From: Nitrospirota bacterium
GTDB taxonomy: Bacteria; JACPQY01
Direction of reading: 5' to 3'
Length of the DNA stretch: 64,000 bases
NCBI GenBank assembly: GCA_016180645.1
Contig: JACPAV010000014.1
Location: forward strand, 1-64,000
A program made the translations under genes and the position numbers. Shown piece after piece: positions 19,297-31,603 of this stretch. Numbering within the stretch: position 1 is the stretch's first letter; each line of letters starts with the position of its first letter. Below the pieces are notes generated by a model that saw nothing but the letters and a program-made list of their open reading frames with translations, had not been told where the DNA came from and did no database searches.

Positions 19297-19370
19297 GGGG
19301 TCAAGTCTTGACTTGATACTTCTCACCGATCTCGGCAGGACCAAGAAGTGTCAAGTCAAGACTTGACCCC
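19297..19370. repeat. Inverted-repeat element, copy A; carries start codon of next gene
   Basis: Two 27-base arms (19297-19323 and 19344-19370) are complementary with one mismatch around a 20-base centre. Each arm has the core GGGGTCAAGTCTTGA or its complement. A second copy is at 30330-30422. The single arm mismatch turns GTA into GTG at 19348, which is the start codon of the sulfatase-fold gene. No transposase is present, so this looks like a non-autonomous element. Confidence 0.85.
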
Positions 19371-21414
19371 CAGGCGGAGGATCCGCCGGGCCATCGCAGT
19401 CGGACTCCTCATCTTTGTCATCCAGTTTGCCCTCTCTCTCGCGTTTCTTGCGAGTCAATCCGTGATGGGGGTCCAGGATCCCCGTTTTGAGGAGCTCTTC
19501 AAAAAGTATTTTCTCCTCTCCGCCGCCTGGATGCAGCTCCGGATTCTTGGCGCCTACGTGGCGGTGGGTTTGGTGCTCTCCCTATTCTCCGCCCTGCCGT
19601 TCGTGGCCGTTCCGAGCCTGTCCCGGTTGCCCGCGCGCGTGCGAGGGTACGGCTTTCTGGCCATGCTCTCCCTCCTGCACATCGGGTTTCTATGTGGAGA
19701 TATTCAAGCCCACCCCCAGAACTATGCGGAGTTTCTTTATGATCGGGGGAGGGGGAGACGACTGCTCCAGATTCTTCTCACGGATCACGGGTTGGGGAAC
19801 TGGGCGAGGGGATTCGCCTGGGGTCTGATGGGGGCCTGTGCCCTCGCGGGCTGCGCGGCGCTGTTTCGCCGATGGCCTCGTCGGACCTTGGCGGCGGGCG
19901 TGGCCTGTATCCTCGGGCTTTGGGTTGGATGGAAGGGCGTTGGGATTTCATCGAATTCGGGGCCCAACGTCATCGTGATTGCGGTGGACTCCTTCCGATC
20001 CGATCGCCTGTTTTCGCCGATCACGCCGCGGATCAGTCGACTGGCGGAGGACGGGGTGTCCTTCCTGCGCGCCTATCCCGACGTCGCCCGCACCTTTCCG
20101 TCCATGGTGACGATCCACACCGGCCGCTACGCGCCCCGGCACGGCATCCGGGAAATGTTTCCGACGCAGGAGCAACGGGCCCGCATCGGCACGACGCTCC
20201 CGCGGTTCCTTCGCGACCACGGCTACGCGACGGCCGTCGTGGCCGACTACGCCGGCGATATTTTCCCCCGCGTCGACCTGGGGTTCGACCATGTGGACTG
20301 CCCGGACTTCACCGCCGAAGTGCTGATGGAACAGCGCTCGCTGGAAACCCACCCACTGCTCCTGCCCTACGTAAGCCATCCGCTTGGCATGAAGTTGTTC
20401 CCCGCGCTTCGGGAATTCACAAGTCTCAGCGAGCCGGCTGCCCTGGCCGCGCGCGCCGACGGAATGATCGGCCGACTCTCTCGTTCGCAAAAATTCTTCC
20501 TGACGATCTTCTTTTCCTCGCCTCACTTTCCCTATTCGGCGCCGGATCCCTACTACCGGCAGTTCACTGATCCGGCCTACCGGGGGCCGTACAAGTATCA
20601 CAAGGCCAATCGCATCGATCTGGCTGAAGAAACGCTCACGGTGGATGACCGCGCCCAGGTCCGCGGGCTCTACGACGGGGCTCTCTACGCCGCCGATGAA
20701 GCGGTGGGCGCATTGGTGCGGCGAATTCAGGAATCGCCCATCGGGCCGAACACCCTCGTCATCATCACCGCGGACCACGGCGAAAACCTTTATGAGCACG
20801 GGTGGATGGGACATGGCGACGAGTTGTGGAATGAAGAAGGGATTCGAGTCCCGATGGTGTTTCTGGGAGCCGGACTCACGCCGAGAAAAATCAGCGACGA
20901 TCCCATCTCACTCGCGAGCTTCACGCCCACACTGGTGGAATGGCTGGGATTCCGGCTGGAGCAGTACGGCCCAACAGACGGAAAGAGTCTGGCGCCGGCG
21001 CTCCGCGGCGGGCTTCCACCGAGTGATCCCATTTATCTTGAGACAGGAGCATGGTTCGTGCCGAAAGGGAGCGCCCGGTTCCACCGCGAGCGCATTCCGT
21101 ACGCGAGCCTGCTCGATTTCACCGAGATGGACGTGGACCACCGTTTCGAGATTGTGGTGCGCCCGGAGTACGAATCGATCATCAACGGCAGCAAGCATCG
21201 GGCGATCATGTCAGGAGACTCTCGACTGGTTTACAAGCCCCTGCGCGGCGGCCCGGAGTATAACTTGCTCCGGATCAAGGGTTATGACGTGGATCCCGGG
21301 TTTGATGCCGCGGAGGGACTCCGACTCCTCCTAGGGCTGAGGAGAATGGCGATGGAGATCGGTGGTGAAACCCTGTTTCACGAATTCCTTGTGGAGAATC
21401 CGGATGCTCCGTAG
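19348..21414 (+). CDS. Membrane-anchored sulfatase/phosphatase-fold protein
   Basis: 688 residues. About five N-terminal membrane helices (to about residue 195) precede an extracytoplasmic alkaline-phosphatase-superfamily domain. VIVIAVDSFRSDRL supplies the first metal Asp, T249 in ARTFPSMVTIHTG is at the nucleophile position, and IITADHGE gives the late Asp-His metal ligands. Sulfatases carry Cys or Ser in CxPSR there; Thr is used by phosphoethanolamine and glycerol-phosphate transferases of the LTA-synthase type, so transfer to a surface glycan or lipid is the better guess. The GTG start and first eight codons lie in a repeat arm; AGGA is seven bases upstream and no alternative start exists before the first helix. 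It overlaps the next gene by 11 bases. Confidence 0.82.
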   Translation: MSSQDLTPRRRIRRAIAVGLLIFVIQFALSLAFLASQSVMGVQDPRFEELFKKYFLLSAAWMQLRILGAYVAVGLVLSLFSALPFVAVPSLSRLPARVRGYGFLAMLSLLHIGFLCGDIQAHPQNYAEFLYDRGRGRRLLQILLTDHGLGNWARGFAWGLMGACALAGCAALFRRWPRRTLAAGVACILGLWVGWKGVGISSNSGPNVIVIAVDSFRSDRLFSPITPRISRLAEDGVSFLRAYPDVARTFPSMVTIHTGRYAPRHGIREMFPTQEQRARIGTTLPRFLRDHGYATAVVADYAGDIFPRVDLGFDHVDCPDFTAEVLMEQRSLETHPLLLPYVSHPLGMKLFPALREFTSLSEPAALAARADGMIGRLSRSQKFFLTIFFSSPHFPYSAPDPYYRQFTDPAYRGPYKYHKANRIDLAEETLTVDDRAQVRGLYDGALYAADEAVGALVRRIQESPIGPNTLVIITADHGENLYEHGWMGHGDELWNEEGIRVPMVFLGAGLTPRKISDDPISLASFTPTLVEWLGFRLEQYGPTDGKSLAPALRGGLPPSDPIYLETGAWFVPKGSARFHRERIPYASLLDFTEMDVDHRFEIVVRPEYESIINGSKHRAIMSGDSRLVYKPLRGGPEYNLLRIKGYDVDPGFDAAEGLRLLLGLRRMAMEIGGETLFHEFLVENPDAP

Positions 21415-23806
21415 TTTGTTCAAACTGGTCGTCGCCCTGCTGGCGCTGGTGGCGCTCCGGAAGATCGCTTTCGAATTTCCCCACTGGCGGCCCGATGTGC
21501 TGGGAGAACTTCCCGAAGGCCGGCTCTTGAAGCAGGGCGAATTCGAGGTGGCAGAGCGGCTGGCCGAGAAGCACCCCGTTTTGGTGAACTTCGATGAATC
21601 AACGGATGTGCGAATCCAGTCGGCCTTCAACCTTGGAGTAGCGATGAAGGGGACCGGCCGTCGAGCCGGACAATCTTGGGCCGCCGTCGGGCGGCTTGGT
21701 CTCGCTCTCGAATCGATGCCCGTGGTTCTCGTTCCTCCGGGCGGTGTGGTGGCGTACCAGGTTGTCCTGCCCCCAAAGGCCGCCTTTGAAACGCACGTCG
21801 CGTCCTGGTTTCCCGATAGCGACTCGGCACGGCTCCTGCGGTTCAGACTGGACGTTATCTCTGAGGGGAGCGCTACCACGGTGATGGACGAATCGGGGCC
21901 CTCCCACCACCCTCCGCATTCTTCCCTCCTCTCGCGGGGCTTGGCCGCGATTGAAAAGTGGTTCGCGCGGGGTGCGCGACCGAAGCGGTGGCTGTTCAAG
22001 AGGGTGGAGACGGATCTTTCTCGATGGAGCGGTCGGTCTGTCATCCTGCGATTTCGAGTGGAGGGGGAAGGACGGGATTCCGCCGGCGTCGGCCTGTGGG
22101 GCGCACCGATCGTGATCGGAGAGCGGACCGCCCCGAAACCGAATCTCCTCTTTCTGGTGATCGACGGACTCAGCCCCCAATTCACCGACTGCCTGGAAGA
22201 CCGCCCTTGGACGGACACTCCGGTCATTGCCGAACTATGCCGGAGTGGAGAGGTGGTGAGGCGGATGTACACGGCGGCGAACGGAACGAGGGCGAGCGTG
22301 GCTGCGCTTGCGTATGGTGTCCGCGCCTCCGATCTTCTGCTGCCGATTTACGACCGCGAAATCCCGGACCGTGTGCGCCGGCTCCGCGCTTGGGGGCCGC
22401 CGTCGATCTTCGAACAGTTGGCGGAGCGGGGATATCGGACCGCCGGCATCCACGACAATATCTTTGCCGTTGAAACCCACGAGGCGGGCTACGATCTCGG
22501 CATCGAGGAGAGCTACATCGTGCACGGCACGATGCAAGACACGCCGAACATCGTGCATCTTGCATCGAACTGGATCCGGAACCACCGCGGATTGCCTTTC
22601 GCTATGTACGTTCACGTGGATGTGACGCACGACTTGTTCAAAGTTCCGCCGATTCGCGACATGGCCGCGACGCTGGTCCACGCGCCGAGCTCCGTATTCA
22701 AAGCCTTCCGATATGCCTCAGGAGCCCACTACAGCGATCGCGTGGCCGGGTGGTTGCGGGATCTCCTGAAAGAGGAAGGGCTGGAGGACGATACGATTTT
22801 CGTCGTCCTCTCGGACCACGGCAACATTTTCAGCCGGGACAAGAAGCGTTCGTATTTCTCGAAGCGCGATGGCCGATGGCAGTGGAGCGATCCGTATGGG
22901 TGGCACGGAGGAACGACGTATGAAGACGACCTCCGCGTGCTGTGGGTCCTGAATGGACCGGGCGTGAAGCCGGGGGAGCGTGAATTCGGGTGGCTGCCCG
23001 AGGAGGCGGGGAAATGGGCGCGAGCGGCGGGCGACGACCTGCCCGATCCCGCTGAATCTTTCACCGATTCCTGCCGGCCGATTGACATGCAAATGGGGGA
23101 GGCATGGGTGTGTCCCGACTCGCTGAAGTTCGTTCGTTTTGCAGAAGGAATTCGGGTCAAAGGGGATGGCCCCGAGCGCCGCGCGGTGGATGAGGCGTGG
23201 CGAGTTTCGGATGATTTCCGTGAACACGTGCTTTCGGGAGCCGACAGCGAAGAGGCGTTTCGCCGAAATCCGCATCCCAATACCCATTCACCGCGAGGAT
23301 GGGTGCTGAGGATACCCCCAAGTTCCTCGATCGATGGGCGCGTGGATTGGGAGCGGGGGGGGGGGCCGTCCGGGAAGAAGACAACAGCCGCGTCTCCTTC
23401 GTTGCCCGTCGTGGCGTCGGACGAATCGCTCGGATGCACGATTCAAGAACTGACCCCAAGCGGGATGGCATTACGGGCGAGGACGCAAACGGAATGGTGC
23501 GAATTCTATTTTGAATCCCCCGAAACCCGGATCCACCTGGACTTGAGCGAAAATGGGCAAGAAGTGAAAACGCTTTCGCTCGGCCCGTTGGGAGTAATCG
23601 AGAAGGGGTCTCGTTTTGAATTCGACTCGTCGAAAGCCCCGCTCCTGACAGCGGGCAAAGGGATGCCCTCGGTCTTTCTCACCGAGTTCCCCGTCCTCTT
23701 CATCACCGGGCGGCGAACGTGGGCCTATTCGAACCTTCCGACGAATCTGAGTCGCCAGACCCCCGAGGTCGTCCAGATCATGAAGGATTGGGGCTATCTC
23801 AAGTGA
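21404..23806 (+). CDS. Second sulfatase/phosphatase-fold surface protein
   Basis: 800 residues. One N-terminal hydrophobic helix (LFKLVVALLALVAL) anchors or exports it. Residues about 30-240 form an unrecognised, probably beta-rich region. The alkaline-phosphatase-superfamily domain starts with LLFLVIDGLSP (metal Asp), has T295 in NGTRASVAAL at the nucleophile position and VVLSDHGN for the late metal ligands, and is followed by a C-terminal beta region. It overlaps the previous gene and starts at the ATG with GGAG nine bases upstream, so the two are probably a functional pair acting on the same polymer. The N-terminal region could bind substrate. No close named relative was recognised. Confidence 0.78.
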   Translation: MLRSLFKLVVALLALVALRKIAFEFPHWRPDVLGELPEGRLLKQGEFEVAERLAEKHPVLVNFDESTDVRIQSAFNLGVAMKGTGRRAGQSWAAVGRLGLALESMPVVLVPPGGVVAYQVVLPPKAAFETHVASWFPDSDSARLLRFRLDVISEGSATTVMDESGPSHHPPHSSLLSRGLAAIEKWFARGARPKRWLFKRVETDLSRWSGRSVILRFRVEGEGRDSAGVGLWGAPIVIGERTAPKPNLLFLVIDGLSPQFTDCLEDRPWTDTPVIAELCRSGEVVRRMYTAANGTRASVAALAYGVRASDLLLPIYDREIPDRVRRLRAWGPPSIFEQLAERGYRTAGIHDNIFAVETHEAGYDLGIEESYIVHGTMQDTPNIVHLASNWIRNHRGLPFAMYVHVDVTHDLFKVPPIRDMAATLVHAPSSVFKAFRYASGAHYSDRVAGWLRDLLKEEGLEDDTIFVVLSDHGNIFSRDKKRSYFSKRDGRWQWSDPYGWHGGTTYEDDLRVLWVLNGPGVKPGEREFGWLPEEAGKWARAAGDDLPDPAESFTDSCRPIDMQMGEAWVCPDSLKFVRFAEGIRVKGDGPERRAVDEAWRVSDDFREHVLSGADSEEAFRRNPHPNTHSPRGWVLRIPPSSSIDGRVDWERGGGPSGKKTTAASPSLPVVASDESLGCTIQELTPSGMALRARTQTEWCEFYFESPETRIHLDLSENGQEVKTLSLGPLGVIEKGSRFEFDSSKAPLLTAGKGMPSVFLTEFPVLFITGRRTWAYSNLPTNLSRQTPEVVQIMKDWGYLK

Positions 23807-23858
23807 CAGCTTGCTTGGAGCCGACCTCCGGACTGGGTTGTGTTCCGGGCCGGAACCC

Positions 23859-23913
23859 GGTAGCCGCGGGCTTTAGCCCGCGTCTAGTACGCAGCCTGAA
23901 GGCTGCGGCTACC
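23859..23913. repeat. Cloverleaf-like palindromic repeat
   Basis: An outer stem GGTAGCCGC (23859-23867) / GCGGCTACC (23905-23913) encloses two perfect hairpins: CGCGGGCT-tt-AGCCCGCG (23865-23882) and CGCAGCCT-ga-AGGCTGCG (23890-23907). Partial copies occur at 4726-4850, 37977-38003 and 43291-43317. It is the most complete member in the window. Confidence 0.75.
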
Positions 23914-23933
23914 CGGAACGGCCTGGAACAGGG

Positions 23934-25037
23934 ATGGAATTCGGGTGTGGATCGAACAAGAAGAAGGGTAGTGGTAGAAGGGCGTGGAGCGTGAGAGCGA
24001 ATTTCCATTGGGCGGGAGGGAGCGAGGCCGCCGACGTCGTTGCCCGCGAGCGAGCACTGCTCTCGGGAATGGGATCGGGCGAGATCGAACCGGTTCCTTG
24101 GATGGTCTGCTCCGCCTTCCGTTCGGAGTTCGTTGCGGCAGGCGCGTATCAACGGCACGATTCCGCTCTGAACCTCGATGCGTGCGCCCGCATGAAAACT
24201 CCGATCATGACGCGATGGACCGGCGGGATCTCCACGCGATGGGGCCCCGGCGTCCTTCACATGGCTCTGTTTCTTCCGAACGCTTCGGCATGGACGGAAA
24301 CACCCATGGATCGCATCATCAACCGATACGTGAGAGGCATTCTGTCAGGCCTTGGATCAATGGGACTGGAAGCGGCTTATAACGGAAAGGAATTCCTCTG
24401 GGCGAACGGGAAACACATCGGGTATCTCTCGTTCGAGGTCGCCCCCGGTGGCGCCGTGTTGTTCGAGTGTTTGCTGGCCATGACAGGCCCGTGGGTCTTG
24501 CCGAAAGAGTTCCTCGCCTACCCGGCCGGTGAATCGTATCTGAGCGGAGGATTCCCTTCCGCCTGTCTCAAGGAATTCGACCTGGAGGCCCTCGCGCCGG
24601 ACGTCCTGGCCCGGAAGTTGGCGGAAGGTTTTGAACGTCGATTCGGGGTTTCATTCGAGGAGGCGAAAGCGCCCGTCTCATCCGCTCCTGCGGTCGAGGA
24701 GGCCCCTCGAAGGACCGATGATCGCTTGCGGAGGGGTGGAGTGGGCCGGGCGAGATCCCGAGTCAGCATCGGGTTTCTTGAAGTCTACGCGTCCATCGAG
24801 AACGAACGGTTCTCGGACTTGGAGGTGTGTGGGGATTTTCTCGCCGATTCAGATGGAATCCGGCGACTGCGTGAAGGTCTGCTTGGCCGGGGAATTCGCA
24901 ACGACGACGTCGAAGGTGTGGTCCGCTCGATTTTCGATCAGAAGAAGCACGTCCTCCTCGGGGCGCGGTTGGCGGAACTGACCTCGACCATTTTGGCGGC
25001 TGGGGAAGCTGCGACCGAATCGAAGTTGCACCCATGA
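23934..25037 (+). CDS. Lipoate-protein ligase A-like (BPL/LPL fold) protein
   Basis: 367 residues. The N-terminal 240 residues follow the lipoyl/biotinyl ligase fold. RWTGGISTRWGPGVLHMALF occupies the place of the RRxSGGGAVyHdpG loop, a YNGKEFLWANGKHIGYLSFEV segment matches the GRKISG region with its catalytic Lys, and a following hydrophobic strand completes the sheet. The Gly-rich loop is less conserved than in true LplA, so substrate and activity are uncertain. The C-terminal 100 residues resemble the small accessory domain of LplA. Start is ambiguous: ATG at 23934, or GTG at 23991, which matches family N termini better. The end overlaps the glycosyltransferase start (ATGA). No lipoylated protein gene is nearby. 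Confidence 0.68.
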   Translation: MEFGCGSNKKKGSGRRAWSVRANFHWAGGSEAADVVARERALLSGMGSGEIEPVPWMVCSAFRSEFVAAGAYQRHDSALNLDACARMKTPIMTRWTGGISTRWGPGVLHMALFLPNASAWTETPMDRIINRYVRGILSGLGSMGLEAAYNGKEFLWANGKHIGYLSFEVAPGGAVLFECLLAMTGPWVLPKEFLAYPAGESYLSGGFPSACLKEFDLEALAPDVLARKLAEGFERRFGVSFEEAKAPVSSAPAVEEAPRRTDDRLRRGGVGRARSRVSIGFLEVYASIENERFSDLEVCGDFLADSDGIRRLREGLLGRGIRNDDVEGVVRSIFDQKKHVLLGARLAELTSTILAAGEAATESKLHP

Positions 25038-26173
25038 AGATCGCCGTTGACCTCAAAGCCGTGGCGCGCGAAACGATGGGCATCGGTGTCTATGCAATGG
25101 AGTTGGCCCGTCGATTTCCTGCCCTGGCCCCGGCGCATCGACTCACGTATCTCGTCCGATCAAACGATATCTTCGAGGTGGCCGAATGGAATCGCTCCGT
25201 GCGATTCATCGCCGCCCCTCCCGCTCTCCGGAGCAAGACGGGTTTCATCGCGTGGGAGCATTTCTTGATGCCGGGCGACTTCGAGCGATTCGAGGCCGAC
25301 GTCGTCTTTTTCCCGGAGACGGTGGTTCCGATCCGACGCTTCGACGCGCCCGCCGTCGTGACGGTCCACGATCTGGCCTACGCCGAAGCCGGTGAAACCC
25401 TGACGATGTCGAAGAGGCTTTATAAGGCGTGGTCTGCACGTCACGCCTCGCGCCGGGCAGCCCGCTTTATTGCCGATTCAGCCTACACGGCCGAGAGCAT
25501 GGAACGCGTCCTCGGAATCCGGCGACAGCGGATCACGGTCGTTCCGCTCGGGGTGGACCCGGCCGTGTTTCGTCCTGTTCGGGATCCGGATCGTCGGCAC
25601 TTGCTTTGGGACCGCGTCGGAATTGGCAATGCCCCATACCTCCTATACGCGGGAAACATCAACCCGAAGAAGAACATCGGCGTTCTGATCGACGCGTTTC
25701 GGGAAGTCCGGAAAGAGTGGGGGAAAGACCTTCGGCTCGTCTTTTCCGGAAAAGTGGGCTGGAAGTTGGACGAGATCGCACCCTGGATGACGGGGGAATG
25801 GAAGGATGGGATTCGGCACGTGGGATTTCTCTCGCGAGAGGAGTTGGTGAGGCTCTACTCGGAAGCGGCGACGTTTGTGTATCCGAGCAGCCATGAAGGA
25901 TTTGGTCTGCCGCTGGCGGAGGCGATGGCCTGCGGGTGTCCCGTCGTTTCGACACGGCGGACGTCCATTCCCGAAGTGGTGGGAGAGGCAGGAATTCTGC
26001 TGGACGAAATGTCATCGGCCACGCTCAGCGCCGCCATTCTTCGTCTCCTCCGGGATCCGGGACTTCGCTCCGATCTCGTCGGGCGTGGCCTCGAACGCGC
26101 CCGCGCCTTTTCCTGGGATCGCGCAGCGCGGCTGACTCTGGACGTGCTGGAAGAAACGGCGCGAACGACCTGA
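25034..26173 (+). CDS. Glycosyltransferase family 4 protein
   Basis: 379 residues, GT-B fold. It would transfer a sugar from a nucleotide-sugar donor to a lipid-linked or surface glycan. The N-terminal half includes GIGVYAMELARRF and VTVHDLAY. The C-terminal donor-binding half has LLYAGNINPKKNIGVLIDAF, HVGFLSREELVRLY and the family Glu pair in PSSHEGFGLPLAEAMACG. Its ATG overlaps the stop of the ligase-like gene by four bases. It ends eight bases from the convergent flippase gene. It probably works with the two upstream sulfatase-fold proteins on an envelope polysaccharide. Confidence 0.92.
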   Translation: MKIAVDLKAVARETMGIGVYAMELARRFPALAPAHRLTYLVRSNDIFEVAEWNRSVRFIAAPPALRSKTGFIAWEHFLMPGDFERFEADVVFFPETVVPIRRFDAPAVVTVHDLAYAEAGETLTMSKRLYKAWSARHASRRAARFIADSAYTAESMERVLGIRRQRITVVPLGVDPAVFRPVRDPDRRHLLWDRVGIGNAPYLLYAGNINPKKNIGVLIDAFREVRKEWGKDLRLVFSGKVGWKLDEIAPWMTGEWKDGIRHVGFLSREELVRLYSEAATFVYPSSHEGFGLPLAEAMACGCPVVSTRRTSIPEVVGEAGILLDEMSSATLSAAILRLLRDPGLRSDLVGRGLERARAFSWDRAARLTLDVLEETARTT

Positions 26174-26181
26174 ACTTTCCG

Positions 26182-27756
26182 CTACGCGCGGCCCAAGTTC
26201 TTCACGCTTCGCAGGAGGTCTCGCGTCCACGCCTTTGTCATGAAGGCGAGAGCGAGGAAGAGGGCCAGGGAGGCTAGTGCGCCGCCGAATCGCCACAGCG
26301 GTTCGGCTTGGGAGAGCGAAAGGCCCAGACCCGCGGTCATCGGGATTCCGGCCACCAGGATTCTGGAGATGTTCACGCCATCCAAGAGTTCCCACGCCCG
26401 CGTCCGGATCGCGCGGGCCACGAGGATCAGAGTCAGAACGGCCATCAAGGCGTACGAGATCAGCCCCGCCGCGGCCGAGCCGCTCAATCCCCACACGGGA
26501 ATCAGGAGAAGGTTCAGGCCGACGTTCAGCAGGGAGCCGACACCGATGGGGATGGATGCTTGGAACGGCCGATTCGTCGCTAGAAGAATGTTTCCCGTAA
26601 GTTGGGCGACGCTGTGCAAGAGGCACCCGGCGAGCAGGATGCGGAGCGCCGGGGTGGCCTGCCGGAAATCGTCTCCAAACCATCCCATGATGACATCTGA
26701 AAATCCGATCCCCGCGAGCATGATGGGCCAGCCCAGTAGGACGAGGTAGCGGTGGGTATCGCGGTAGGTCTTGAGAACCTGATGGCTCTCCCCGCGGTGC
26801 CAGAGCCCCGAGAGGGAGGAGAAAAGCATCTGGGCGGGCAATCTCGTAATCATGTCGAACACTTTGAAAACCGAGTAGGCGCTGGCGTAGTAGCCCAGTT
26901 GCTCCACCGTGAGCAGGAGGGGGATGATCAGGCGGTCGGCGTATTCAATGACGATTTCCGAAAGCTGCTGCGGCAGCGCGCGCGCGTTGTAACTGATCAC
27001 GGAGCGGGAAGAAGGAATTGACCCGCCCGCCTCGGTGGTGCGTCGTCGGTATTCAAGCCATACGAAAATCCCGCCACCAATGAACGCGCAGAACGGGAAA
27101 AACACTTTGTACATCGCAGCCGATTGGGCCGATCGACCCAGAAGCCAGGGAAGCGCGAAGACGAAACCCAGCGTGAGATACTGCGCCGCGGTTTCCGCGC
27201 GGAAAAAGAATTTCATCCGTTGCGTGGCGCGGAAACGGCATTGGGCGAACTGCCAACTGTGCTCCAGGAACGCCGCGGCGAGAACGAGCGGGATCAGCGC
27301 CTTCCACAGTGATCCCTGACCGTACGCACGATCGAGAACGATCGCCGACATCGGTATCAACACCGCCGAGGAAAGCGCCATCATCCAGATGGATGTCCGG
27401 TAGGTTTTCCAGAAGAGCGACCAGCCGCGCGAGCTGTCCGGCGGATAGGCGGTGAGGGCATGGGCGAGCCCCGCCCCTCCCGTCAACCGGGAGACATAGG
27501 CCAGGAGGCCCGAGAAAAAGAGGAGCAGGGTGACCTGTCCCACCACCTCCGCCCCGAAAAGGCGGGCGAGCGCGACATTGATTCCAACGACGGCCGGGAA
27601 CGGGATGATCCGTGCCATCGTGTTGTAGACGACGGCCGAGACGAGTTGCCTGGAAACAGTGGAAGGCGGGGGCCCCCCACTGCCCGAAAAGGGACGCGGA
27701 GCGGACTCGGAGCCTGTCGGCTCGCTCGGCGAGCCGGATTCAGGTGGTGGGGTCAA
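26182..27756 (-). CDS. Polysaccharide flippase (MOP/Wzx family), second of operon
   Basis: 524 residues with 12-14 membrane helices spread over the whole length, typical of Wzx-like exporters that flip undecaprenyl-linked oligosaccharides across the inner membrane. The first 35 residues are Pro/Ser/Gly-rich and cytoplasmic. Characteristic segments are AVVYNTMARIIPFPAVVGIN near the start, YADRLIIPLLLTVEQLGYYA in the middle and LLIPVWGLSGSAAAGLIS near helix 11. A TTG start overlaps the preceding glycosyltransferase stop (TTGA), so it is translationally coupled. It is the second flippase in a four-gene operon, which is unusual for one glycan. Confidence 0.88.
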   Translation of the reverse strand: MTPPPESGSPSEPTGSESAPRPFSGSGGPPPSTVSRQLVSAVVYNTMARIIPFPAVVGINVALARLFGAEVVGQVTLLLFFSGLLAYVSRLTGGAGLAHALTAYPPDSSRGWSLFWKTYRTSIWMMALSSAVLIPMSAIVLDRAYGQGSLWKALIPLVLAAAFLEHSWQFAQCRFRATQRMKFFFRAETAAQYLTLGFVFALPWLLGRSAQSAAMYKVFFPFCAFIGGGIFVWLEYRRRTTEAGGSIPSSRSVISYNARALPQQLSEIVIEYADRLIIPLLLTVEQLGYYASAYSVFKVFDMITRLPAQMLFSSLSGLWHRGESHQVLKTYRDTHRYLVLLGWPIMLAGIGFSDVIMGWFGDDFRQATPALRILLAGCLLHSVAQLTGNILLATNRPFQASIPIGVGSLLNVGLNLLLIPVWGLSGSAAAGLISYALMAVLTLILVARAIRTRAWELLDGVNISRILVAGIPMTAGLGLSLSQAEPLWRFGGALASLALFLALAFMTKAWTRDLLRSVKNLGRA

Positions 27757-28922
27757 ACGCGGCCTCGCAAGGCGGTCTGGTAGACGGCGAGAGTGTCTGT
27801 CGTGAAGCGTGCGAGCGAGAACATCCCGCGGGCACGCTGCCGGCCCGCGTCTCCAAAACGCCGTTCCCCCGAAGGCTCTTTCAGGACTCTGATCAGGGCA
27901 GGTGCGAGAAGCTCCGGGTGGTCATGCGGCACCACGAGGCCACAACGCTCATGTTCGACGACCTCGGGCAGGCCGCCCGTGTTCGACACGACGACCGGCA
28001 CGCCCTCGGCCATCGCTTCCGCGACGGACAGGCCGAAACCTTCGATGGAGGAACCGGCAGGGAGACTGAACAGCACGAGGGTGTCGGCCACGGCGAAAAA
28101 AGCGGCGGCATCGGGCGCCTCGCCGCAGAATCGTACGGCGCCATCGAGTCCCATCGCATGGGCCTCCAACTTGAGCTCGGTCATCGAATCCCCGCTCCCC
28201 ACCATGACGTAAGCCGCCTCCGGGACGGTCCGCAGAATCTCCGGAAGGGCACGGATCACCTCCATCTGTCCCTTGCGGGGGTGAAGATGCGCGATCGTGA
28301 GGATGACTTTCTTTCCGTAGAGGTCGAATCGCGACCGAAGATCAGATGCCGCCTCCGGAGCATGATATCGGGGGCGTGTGTCCACTCCGTTGTAGACCAC
28401 GTGCAGCTTGTCGGCCGGCAGACCGTGTGATTCGGCCAGCGATCGCGTGAACCGACTTACACAGATAATACGGTCGGCCTCCAAGTAAGCCGGACGAAAC
28501 AGTCGATCTCTCAGGCGGAGCCCTCGGCGATTCAGGTTTCGGAGCAGTTCCGTGCCGTGAACGGTCATGACGCGCGGAAGGGCCGGGGTTTCCATCCGCC
28601 CCAAAGCCAGATGGGCTATCGAACTCACCGCATGGAGGACGTCGGGCCGCACGCTATTCAGAACCTCTTCCATCGCTTCGACTCCCTTCCGATAGCGGTG
28701 GAAATCCGACCCGGTGGCATCGAAACGATGGATGTAGGGTCGCTGTCCGCCGGCATCCCACGGTGTTCCGGGGCAGACCACGTGCACTTCATGACCCAAC
28801 TCGCCCAGACCGACCGCGAGACTTCGCGCATAGGCCGAAATCCCACCGATGAAGGGAGGGAAATCGTAGGTGAACAGAACAATCGTCAGTCGGCCCTGAG
28901 GAGTTTGCGTTTCCAGATCCAT
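27753..28922 (-). CDS. Glycosyltransferase family 4 protein
   Basis: About 389 residues, GT-B fold. N-terminal landmarks are TYDFPPFIGGISAYARSLA (the acceptor-side Gly-rich loop) and MTVHGTELL. Donor-side landmarks are VYNGVDTRPRY, HLHPRKGQMEVI and EGFGLSVAEAMAEGVPVVVS with the conserved Glu residues. The frame is open further upstream, but that part is a shadow of the flippase gene. The ATG at 28922 overlaps the flippase 3' end by 37 bases and has GGAGG immediately against it. It is the third gene of a GT-flippase-GT-flippase operon. Confidence 0.9.
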   Translation of the reverse strand: MDLETQTPQGRLTIVLFTYDFPPFIGGISAYARSLAVGLGELGHEVHVVCPGTPWDAGGQRPYIHRFDATGSDFHRYRKGVEAMEEVLNSVRPDVLHAVSSIAHLALGRMETPALPRVMTVHGTELLRNLNRRGLRLRDRLFRPAYLEADRIICVSRFTRSLAESHGLPADKLHVVYNGVDTRPRYHAPEAASDLRSRFDLYGKKVILTIAHLHPRKGQMEVIRALPEILRTVPEAAYVMVGSGDSMTELKLEAHAMGLDGAVRFCGEAPDAAAFFAVADTLVLFSLPAGSSIEGFGLSVAEAMAEGVPVVVSNTGGLPEVVEHERCGLVVPHDHPELLAPALIRVLKEPSGERRFGDAGRQRARGMFSLARFTTDTLAVYQTALRGRV

Positions 28923-30352
28923 CCTCCGAAGAGTGCACAAAATAGGAGCGCGAGTCCACCCATCTCCAAGGGCGTATCCACGGTGATCCACGCCCCCAAG
29001 GCCCAGAGCAGGGCGGCCAGTGCGGCGCCGGCGGCGAGGACTTCGATCTGCGACAAACTGAAAGTCTGCACTCGGGTTTTGGAGTTCATGAGGAGGACGA
29101 GGGGAATTTTGGAAACGGCCGTCCCGGCGCAGGTGATCCACGCGGCGGTCACACCCGCACCCCCCGGGATCAGGAGCGGACCGAGTACCAGCGTGAGAAT
29201 CATAGGGAGGCTGTTGAAGAGCGTGTAGGCGTAGGGTCTGCCCGTTGCCGCGAGAACCTCGCCGGCCGGCCCACCCGCCGTATACGCGAAGTGACCGAGG
29301 ACCAGCAGGATGAGCGGCGCATGCCCGAAGCGCGGCTCCATTCCAAACGCTTCCATCAAGGGCGCCCCGAAGAGGAGGGCGAGAACCACGGCGGGAATCG
29401 TGGCCACGGTGCTCCACAGGGCTGCGGCGCGCGCCGATTCCCTGAGCCGCTTGTGGTCTCCGGTGGTTGAAGCCTCCGCCAGCAGGGGCGACATGATGGG
29501 GGGAAACGCGGCACGAATCTTGACGATAATGAATGCCACTTCCGTGGCAAGGTTATACGCGGCGACCTGCGGGAGAGGGAGGTAACGCCCGACCAGAAAA
29601 ATATCGACGCGGCGGGAAAGAAGGGTGGACATGTTCACGCCGCCGAGCGCCACCGAGTAGGAAAAAGTCTCGCGGTGAAACCACGCAGGGTGCGGCATGA
29701 ACATTTGGCCCAGGGAGAAATGGCGCCGTGTGGTGACGAACGCCACCAAGACCACGGCGAATTCGGCGACAAGATGCGCCACGAAAGGTCCCTCCGCTTT
29801 GGGGATCGGCAGCTGGAACTGTAGAAAGAGCAGGGCCAGAGAAACCATCGCGAGAGGCTCAAACATCTCGATCCCGATGACGTAGTACTTCATGATCTTG
29901 AGACCCCGCGTGGCGGCGAACAGGATTCGAGCCAGCGTGGCCAGCGGAAGGATGGCCCCCATCCACCGGAGTCCGGGGGCGACCTCCGGCTTGCGGAACA
30001 GCAGACTCGCCACCGGTTCGGCGCCCAGGACCAGTCCCGCGCCGAGGACGAGGGATGCGAACGCGGGCAGCAGTATCGCCGTTTGGAGGCAGGACCGCTC
30101 ACGAGCCCTGTCGGTTCCCCGGTACCGCGGAATGAAGTTCCAGAGTGCGTTGTCGAATCCCGCGAGGCAGAGGAAGAGAAGAACGTCGTATACGGCGAAA
30201 CTGAGGGAGTACACCGCGTACTCCGACGTGCCGTAGAGTTTGGCAACGATCCAGAGAAAACCCACGCGCGAGGTGCGAAGCGCGATGCCGGTGAAATTCG
30301 TCAGGACCCCCCGGCCCAGCGAAGACGAAGGGGTCAAGTCTTGATTTGGCAC
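28886..30352 (-). CDS. Polysaccharide flippase (MOP/Wzx family), first of operon; start codon in a repeat
   Basis: 488 residues with 12-14 membrane helices. The first begins around NFTGIALRTSRVGFLWIVAK, and a loop near residue 90 carries FIPRYRG as in Wzx-type and RfbX-type transporters. It would move lipid-linked oligosaccharide units to the periplasm. Its GTG start and first eight codons (M-P-N-Q-D-L-T-P) are encoded by an arm of the inverted-repeat element at 30330-30422; GGAAG lies just upstream and no other start exists before the first helix. The sulfatase-fold gene at 19348 begins the same way. It overlaps the next glycosyltransferase. Confidence 0.88.
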   Translation of the reverse strand: MPNQDLTPSSSLGRGVLTNFTGIALRTSRVGFLWIVAKLYGTSEYAVYSLSFAVYDVLLFLCLAGFDNALWNFIPRYRGTDRARERSCLQTAILLPAFASLVLGAGLVLGAEPVASLLFRKPEVAPGLRWMGAILPLATLARILFAATRGLKIMKYYVIGIEMFEPLAMVSLALLFLQFQLPIPKAEGPFVAHLVAEFAVVLVAFVTTRRHFSLGQMFMPHPAWFHRETFSYSVALGGVNMSTLLSRRVDIFLVGRYLPLPQVAAYNLATEVAFIIVKIRAAFPPIMSPLLAEASTTGDHKRLRESARAAALWSTVATIPAVVLALLFGAPLMEAFGMEPRFGHAPLILLVLGHFAYTAGGPAGEVLAATGRPYAYTLFNSLPMILTLVLGPLLIPGGAGVTAAWITCAGTAVSKIPLVLLMNSKTRVQTFSLSQIEVLAAGAALAALLWALGAWITVDTPLEMGGLALLFCALFGGWIWKRKLLRAD

Positions 30353-30422
30353 AACTTCCGCGGATGGGGGTTACGGGCGGTCGGGCCGCGGCCCAAGAAG
30401 TATCAAGTCAAGACTCGACCCC
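30330..30422. repeat. Inverted-repeat element, copy B; carries start codon of flippase
   Basis: The right arm (30396-30422) matches copy A's right arm with two differences. The left arm from 30330 shares GGGGTCAAGTCTTGA and then diverges (TTTGGCAC). The centre differs from copy A and is longer, about 93 bases overall. The minus-strand GTG at 30350-30352 lies in the left arm at the same offset as the GTG in copy A; the non-coding arm reads GTA there. Confidence 0.85.
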
Positions 30423-30429
30423 ATGGGGC

Positions 30430-31569
30430 TCATACGGGGTCGAGGACCGATTCGATGCGGCGGGCCATCACCGGAGCGGCGAAATTCTTTCGAACGTGAT
30501 CCGATGCCGCGCGGGCGATCCGTCCGGCCAGGGCCGGATCGTCCAAGAGTTTCAGAATCCCTTCCGCGAATTCGAGCGGCGCACCGGGCGGCACAAGGAC
30601 TCCATCCTCGCCATCGTGGATGATTTCCGGGATACCACCGACCGCCGTGGCCACCACCGGCACGCCCATGGCCATCGCCTCGATGACGACCCGCCCGAAC
30701 GGCTCTTGAAGCGAAGGAATGGCGGCCACGTTCACCTCGCTCAAATAGGGCCGGATGTCCGGAACGGCGCCGGTGAAATGGACCGCGCTTTCGACGCCCA
30801 ATTGACGGACACGGTCGGCCAACCGTTGTCTAAATCGGCCGCTGCCTCCGACGGGCTCGTCGCCGACGAGAACGAACTGTGCGTCGCGTTGTCGTCGAAG
30901 CACGTGCGGTGCGGATTCGACGAGGATCTGCGGTCCCTTCCGTGGGATCAGATTTCCGAAATATCCGACGAGCGGCGCCGATCGCTCCAGCTTCAGCGCG
31001 CTTCTGACGGCTCCGGACGCGTTTTGCGCGGAGAAGCGATCGAGGTCCACCCCGTTGTGAATCACGACGGTCTTGCCGCCCACCCATCGCGCGTACGGTT
31101 CCCGCGAAGCCTCCGAATTGCAGATCACCTTTTTCACCCGCGGCGAGCGCGCGAGCATCGGATAGAAAGTCGCTCGGGCTCGCGTGTCATGGATATTCCG
31201 ACAGTGAAAGACGACCGGCCTCCTGGCGCTTCCCCCCGCCAGCCAGCCGACCGGTTTTGTGAGCATATTGTTGCAGTAGATCAGATCGAACTCTCCGGAT
31301 TGGGCGAGCGCGGCGACCTCCCGCGCGGCGAGCGCGAGCCCGATGACGCGCCGGGGCGCCGAGGCCGGAGACTCCATTCGTTCAGGCAGGCTTCGGATCT
31401 CGGTCAGCGGAACACGCAAGCCTCGATACAGTTCCCCGAAAATGCCCGAGGAGGGCACGACCACATGGGGTTCGAATCGGGTCCGATCGAGGTTCTTGAT
31501 CAGGCTGTAGAGGCTCCAGCCGGCGCCGCCGCCTCGAACGCATGTGGAAAGGAAGAGGATCTTCTTCAT
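30430..31569 (-). CDS. Glycosyltransferase family 4 protein, first gene of glycan operon
   Basis: About 379 residues, GT-B fold. The N-terminal half has CVRGGGAGWSLYSLIKNL and a long helix; the C-terminal half has VIHNGVDLDRF, GYFGNLIPRKGPQILVE and SLQEPFGRVVIEAMAMGVPV with the donor-binding Glu pair. The ATG at 31569 is preferred because it starts the beta strand KKILFLS; a GTG 15 bases upstream is also possible and neither has a Shine-Dalgarno. A TAGCAT -10-like box lies 15 bases upstream. It leads the minus-strand GT-flippase-GT-flippase run. Confidence 0.9.
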   Translation of the reverse strand: MKKILFLSTCVRGGGAGWSLYSLIKNLDRTRFEPHVVVPSSGIFGELYRGLRVPLTEIRSLPERMESPASAPRRVIGLALAAREVAALAQSGEFDLIYCNNMLTKPVGWLAGGSARRPVVFHCRNIHDTRARATFYPMLARSPRVKKVICNSEASREPYARWVGGKTVVIHNGVDLDRFSAQNASGAVRSALKLERSAPLVGYFGNLIPRKGPQILVESAPHVLRRQRDAQFVLVGDEPVGGSGRFRQRLADRVRQLGVESAVHFTGAVPDIRPYLSEVNVAAIPSLQEPFGRVVIEAMAMGVPVVATAVGGIPEIIHDGEDGVLVPPGAPLEFAEGILKLLDDPALAGRIARAASDHVRKNFAAPVMARRIESVLDPV

Positions 31570-31603
31570 GGGGTGGAGGCCCACATGCTATTGCGTTTGG
31601 CCC

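Follow-up and report, generated by a model that had tools for sequence, protein, structure and literature searches.

A 64,000-nucleotide stretch of Nitrospirota DNA (contig JACPAV010000014.1, positions 1 to 64,000; hereafter, the window) carries two copies of a short, two-arm hairpin element, one at the 5' end of a sulfatase-family gene and the other at the 5' end of a flippase gene. The element is probably a miniature derivative of a TIRYT-type transposon, copies of which landed on the beginnings of both genes and whose arms now supply their start codons. The two copies, A (19297-19370, 74 bp) and B (30330-30422, 93 bp), were delimited by arm matches, folding and copy alignment, and they lie where a first-pass annotation, made from the letters of the window, had placed them. 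As that annotation proposed, one arm of each copy begins a gene. The right arm of copy A (19348-19370, minus orientation; GTGTCAAGTCAAGACTTGACCCC when read outward) gives GTG TCA AGT CAA GAC TTG ACC CC from 19348 on the plus strand, encodes the N-terminus MSSQDLTP and runs into the 688-residue open reading frame (ORF) of a membrane protein of the sulfatase family (PF00884; 19348-21414, plus strand). The gene-opening arm of copy B (30330-30352, plus orientation; GTGCCAAATCAAGACTTGACCCC outward on the minus strand) similarly gives GTG CCA AAT CAA GAC TTG ACC CC from 30352, encodes MPNQDLTP and runs into the 488-residue ORF of a flippase (polysaccharide biosynthesis/MatE; 28886-30352, minus strand). 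The opposite arms, at 19297-19319 (GGGGTCAAGTCTTGACTTGATAC, plus orientation) and 30400-30422 (minus orientation), have GTA as the corresponding outward codon, again as described earlier.

Neither gene has an in-frame ATG, GTG or TTG between the preceding stop codon and the arm GTG, or after the arm up to the first membrane helix. The claim that no other usable start precedes the first helix thus holds outside the arm, but it overlooked a TTG at codon 6 within the arm (19363-19365, plus strand, and 30335-30337, minus strand), which is the only other standard start before that helix in both genes. Be it the GTG or the TTG, any standard start ahead of the first helix is therefore provided by the element. 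The GTG is the better placed of the two in both genes. For the sulfatase gene, the GTG at 19348-19350 (plus strand) follows an AGGA (19337-19340) 7 nt upstream, and its best anti-Shine-Dalgarno duplex has -5.7 kcal/mol versus only -0.5 for the TTG. The corresponding energies for the flippase are -3.6 kcal/mol for the GTG at 30350-30352 (minus strand) and -0.2 for the TTG, and neither TTG has a Shine-Dalgarno signal. We infer that initiation in cells takes place at the arm GTG, with the TTG at codon 6 as the alternative.

Comparison with a relative of the same family but another genus (G001), which carries the same gene cluster on one contig, gives direct access to loci lacking the element: the flippase and the sulfatase locus of G001 both lack it, and the flippase locus is the cleaner empty site. 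The G001 flippase starts with a GTG that overlaps the stop codon of the upstream glycosyltransferase gene (GC GTGAGCCCC), within one codon of the start position in the window. In the window, the stop codon of the glycosyltransferase gene (30430-31584, minus strand) is followed by ATGAGCCCC, the same letters as at the G001 flippase start, and then by copy B. This relic overlaps the TGA of the glycosyltransferase gene (as ATGA) and is separated from the flippase by copy B after codon 3. Its frame crosses the first arm and ends at a TAA in the loop of copy B, forming a 20-codon leader ORF (MSPMGSSLDLILLGPRPDRP; 30371-30433, minus strand) that stops 18 nt before the new GTG. Since the G001 start survives as a relic that is cut off and blocked by the TAA, the flippase start appears to have moved into the arm, and the simplest history would be an insertion after codon 3 that shifted the start into the far arm.

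The sulfatase gene of G001 starts at its own ATG (88345 or 88366). Relative to the start in the window, sulfatase orthologues have a start between 7 codons downstream and a few codons upstream, and most of the more distant sulfatase orthologues also have a start a few codons from the same place. Element-free orthologues have a similar distance from start to first helix but unrelated codons, which, together with the flippase relic, bears out the earlier proposal that the element has taken the place of the original 5' ends in the two genes. The first-pass annotation had taken orthologues starting at the same place as an argument against coding use of the element; the argument runs the other way, as the same place with other codons supports replacement. 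Relative to G001, nonsynonymous and synonymous divergence (dN and dS) are about 0.22 and 1.6 for the sulfatase gene and about 0.39 and 1.27 for the flippase gene, with synonymous sites near saturation in each case, and both genes look constrained in this comparison.

The arms belong to a dispersed family. When up to 3 mismatches are allowed, four sites in the window match the 23-nt arm, versus none expected from shuffled sequences, and the search of the source genome that had been suggested (G000; 4.7 Mb, 65 contigs) found 31 arm sites at the same threshold, versus none for a reversed control. The sites are arranged as two-arm units of about 66-118 bp (mostly 66-93 bp), as lone arms, or at both ends of transposase units of about 1.0 kb. 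Each arm is itself a small palindrome, and as single-stranded DNA the whole copies fold more stably than shuffled sequence, with z = -7.8 for copy A and -4.0 or -2.5, depending on the strand, for copy B. Across the 145 genomes searched, leaving aside the source genome itself, five occurrences of the arm are in G001, and two distant genomes have one each. Only four stretches from about 85,000 collected genomes carry the exact arm pattern, two of which come from the G001 metagenome-assembled genome and none of which is titled Rickettsia; the pattern is thus almost confined to this lineage. A scan of the window against Rfam returned no family over threshold, and a known RNA element was accordingly set aside. 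A departure from the usual arrangement is seen at G000 C4:38201-38254, where the two arms share one orientation and form a direct tandem, 31 bp apart.

Full-length Y1/HUH transposase units with arms at both ends were found in four cases, three in G000 and one in G001. The arms of G000 C34:52170-53176 and C34:53578-54622 are identical to those of the element, C32:14102-15115 has an arm variant at its ends, and the fourth unit is at C22:36037-37080 of G001. All four transposases match PF01797 (44-48 bits, cut-off 23) and have the HYH motif, and their scores against NF047646, the model for repetitive extragenic palindrome (REP)-associated tyrosine transposases (RAYTs), are 70.6-74.3 bits for a cut-off of 80. 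A C-terminal DnaA-like helix-turn-helix (HTH) domain is weakly indicated in the G001 protein (Bac_DnaA_C, E = 3.1e-4, under the Pfam cut-off), and the C32 transposase has a weak match to a DnaA model (E = 8e-4); the profile scan of the two C34 transposases listed no match to such a domain. The transposase ORF of C34:52170-53176 runs into its own right arm, ending in ...MPIQDLT, and the arms of this subtype read ATG outward rather than GTG or GTA.

These transposases fit the published TIRYT group, which comprises RAYT-like enzymes with terminal inverted repeats of the form GGGGWSAS in place of GTAG REPs, the repeats being moderately abundant and arranged as dimers (PMC3733652). The group is probably the same as TnpA-REP subclass 2.1, in which TIRYTs were later placed and which has C-terminal Bac_DnaA_C/HTH domains (PMC6006769). 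Shared features are a RAYT-related Y1/HUH transposase, inverted repeats starting with GGGG[AT][CG]A, and moderate numbers of dispersed copies arranged as inverted dimers; a DnaA-like C-terminal HTH is hinted at in two of the four proteins. As a difference, the arm start, GGGGTCAA, agrees with the GGGGWSAS motif at seven of its eight positions, the final letter being off. The element is probably a non-autonomous miniature form of a TIRYT-type Y1 (HUH) transposon that the genome has retained, in which a REPIN- or MITE-like (miniature inverted-repeat transposable element) pair of inverted arms encloses a short, variable spacer; the linked transposase would mobilise it. Copies would have entered the sulfatase-fold and flippase genes at their 5' ends, displacing the native starts. 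As one outward frame of each arm is stop-free and contains a TTG (in every intact arm) as well as a GTG (in the arm that usually has a G), a copy landing in phase near the beginning of a gene would provide it with a new start plus eight codons, and insertions of any other kind would leave it unusable.

The first-pass annotation, having noticed that both start arms have GTG and both partner arms GTA, suggested that GTA had been changed to GTG; in a fuller version, selection for a start codon would have driven the change. The alignment of 11 two-arm copies from G000 and G001 does not bear this out: placed in like orientation, nine of the 11 carry GTG in their right arm, copies that open no gene among them, and so does the oriented consensus. 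Start arms show no significant excess of GTG either (two of two, versus 8 of 21 other arms, including arms that open no gene; Fisher p = 0.18). C21a, for instance, has GTG in an internal arm, and the TTG is present in all intact arms. The difference between GTG and GTA is an ordinary asymmetry of the element, forming a T-G wobble pair in the hairpin. Mutation of GTA to GTG as the source of the starts is contradicted by the copy table, and its selection as a start codon is hardly credible.

Several findings weigh against the insertion of a start-donating element. Both starts lie within very stable RNA hairpins (-68 and -54 kcal/mol over the 131-nt regions), and such hairpins should hinder initiation unless they are melted. 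The flippase GTG has a weak Shine-Dalgarno match. The cluster contains a second flippase gene (26182-27756), so that loss of expression of the 28886-30352 flippase might be tolerated, and the latter could be a recent pseudogene. At the sulfatase locus, copy A coincides with a synteny break, which makes this empty site less clean than that of the flippase, and its loop carries an unexplained 11-mer common to the orthologous G001 start. That sequence, TCTCGGCAGGA (19330-19340, plus strand), agrees letter for letter, and in frame, with codons 2-5 (SRQD) after the ATG of the G001 orthologue, an identity matched by only 2 of 20,000 shuffles. The 11-mer may be a chance match after several looks, or it may represent native codons trapped between the arms. 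An insertion shared by common ancestry with G001 was considered for the sulfatase locus and rejected: the arms of copy A show no significant alignment to the G001 sulfatase region (p about 0.3 for each arm), and the loop 11-mer alone aligns.

Two observations on gene order go with these loci. Copy A sits at the edge of synteny with G001, the genes upstream of the sulfatase gene differing between the two genomes, and it may mark a rearrangement point. The flippase genes at 26182-27756 and 28886-30352 are different genes of one polysaccharide cluster, and for each of the two regions there is an alignment to the syntenic contig of G001.

Alternatively, the insertions may have broken the genes, leaving recent pseudogenes or poorly expressed genes in which the arm starts are not meaningfully used. 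The enclosure of the starts by stable hairpins and the presence of a second flippase would agree with this, and the arms could be young enough for decay not yet to be visible. Both ORFs are full length with codon constraint, however, and both insertions leave an in-frame standard start, which in copy A also has an AGGA at good spacing. We therefore regard broken genes as distinctly unlikely, although the flippase may be fading if it is poorly translated. Quite improbable in our view is the proposal that the copies lie ahead of the genes as ordinary insertions outside the translated sequence, with translation beginning further downstream. A published survey cautioned that many REPs apparently at the N-termini of ORFs are extragenic, the true start being downstream (PMC3733652), and other copies of our element do end just outside gene starts: the C47 copy 1 nt before the ATG of a glycosyltransferase-like gene, and the C11 copy of G001 against the recG ATG. 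In contrast, the next ATG, GTG or TTG past the arm comes no earlier than within the first conserved membrane helix in either window gene, and the orthologues of both start at about the position of the arm.

One mechanism would add to, rather than replace, the donation of starts by the arms. A ribosome that translates the relic leader, or one that continues past the end of the upstream gene, might melt the hairpin, stop in the loop and re-initiate at the arm start, so that the element would act as a coupling device or attenuator. The leader, whose start overlaps the upstream stop codon over 4 nt, ends 18 nt before the new GTG, which suits such a relay; the argument is one of geometry, however, as 4-nt overlaps are common and the distance from leader to start is what an insertion would produce by chance. 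We hold this regulatory relay to be a tentative possibility on the unlikely side.

Elsewhere, copies also lie in or beside coding sequences. The C18:48947-49012 copy contributes 22 codons (GSSLELTQVAEFEPVSIQDLTP) in frame to an ABC exporter, between the membrane and ATPase domains, where the G001 exporter has a different, longer linker. The C50:19115-19219 copy, one arm of which is a variant, adds 35 in-frame codons to the interior of an ORF containing a CheR methyltransferase domain. Arms supply the stop codons (...GVKS*) of two genes, at C33 and C34:52170, which we take, from reading the sequences by eye, to encode a surface protein and a WYL-type regulator, respectively. In G001, the C59:19125-19210 copy provides both the stop of a wax-ester-synthase-like gene and an in-frame lead into a hydrolase gene (MKPVSGQDLTP...); donation of a start is possible there but not required, as GTG codons follow the arm. 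An ORF of C45 with QDLTP near its start lies at a contig end, and the query region has no relative in G000 or G001. Among arms facing the 5' side of a gene, five of six are in the one start-bearing frame (p about 0.02, in a small, post hoc sample).

Palindromic repeats in genes are not new. Published cases comprise REPs and Rickettsia palindromic elements (RPEs) located within genes, at their stop codons or at N-termini (PMC3733652, PMC10969869), as well as fusions of MITEs to ORFs (PMC2759123), and N-termini decorated by RPE-1 were reported as expressed (PMC3733652). Our element resembles REPs and REPINs associated with RAYTs (PMC3116915, PMC2817692) in its two inverted palindromic arms, variable spacer, single hairpin and Y1 transposase. 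In contrast, it has no GTAG or GTGG foot, its arms begin with GGGG, it is present in about 20 copies rather than hundreds, several of which are in coding sequence, and its transposase is flanked as a unit and, with NF047646 below cut-off, is not a canonical RAYT. Like RPEs and intragenic REPs (PMC3733652, PMC10969869, PMC2229807), it is palindromic mobile DNA read in frame, at N-termini and in conserved genes. Its sequence is unrelated to that of RPEs, and its arms begin with GGGGTC and lack the CGTC foot of some RPE families. No transposase has been tied to the CGTC-type repeats, including RPE-4 and RPE-6, whereas our element is linked to a transposase and the relic of a displaced start is visible. 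The enterobacterial ERIC and RU MITEs (PMC2759123) are also small mobile elements that give residues to genes, some of them N-terminal, but they are different elements with no sequence relation seen to our arms. No earlier account of TIRYT repeats acting as donors of start codons came to light among open-licence papers.

This TIRYT-type case adds to the known class of REPs, RPEs and MITEs in coding sequences, with stronger comparative evidence. One could go further and view the element as a portable gene-boundary module, with outward starts, inward stops and frames open through the hairpin, in which the displaced flippase start drives a short leader, translation of which unfolds the hairpin and ties the new start to the gene upstream; we offer this as a speculation on the unlikely side. 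Earlier surveys found REP-like repeats at the N-termini of many ORFs and suspected mis-annotated starts; here, an element-free relative and a surviving relic start are both at hand. Judging from these sequences, this would be an unusually direct comparative case of a transposase-linked hairpin taking over the start codon and N-terminus of a gene, and it offers a clean system in which to study what allows a gene to tolerate an insertion at its start.

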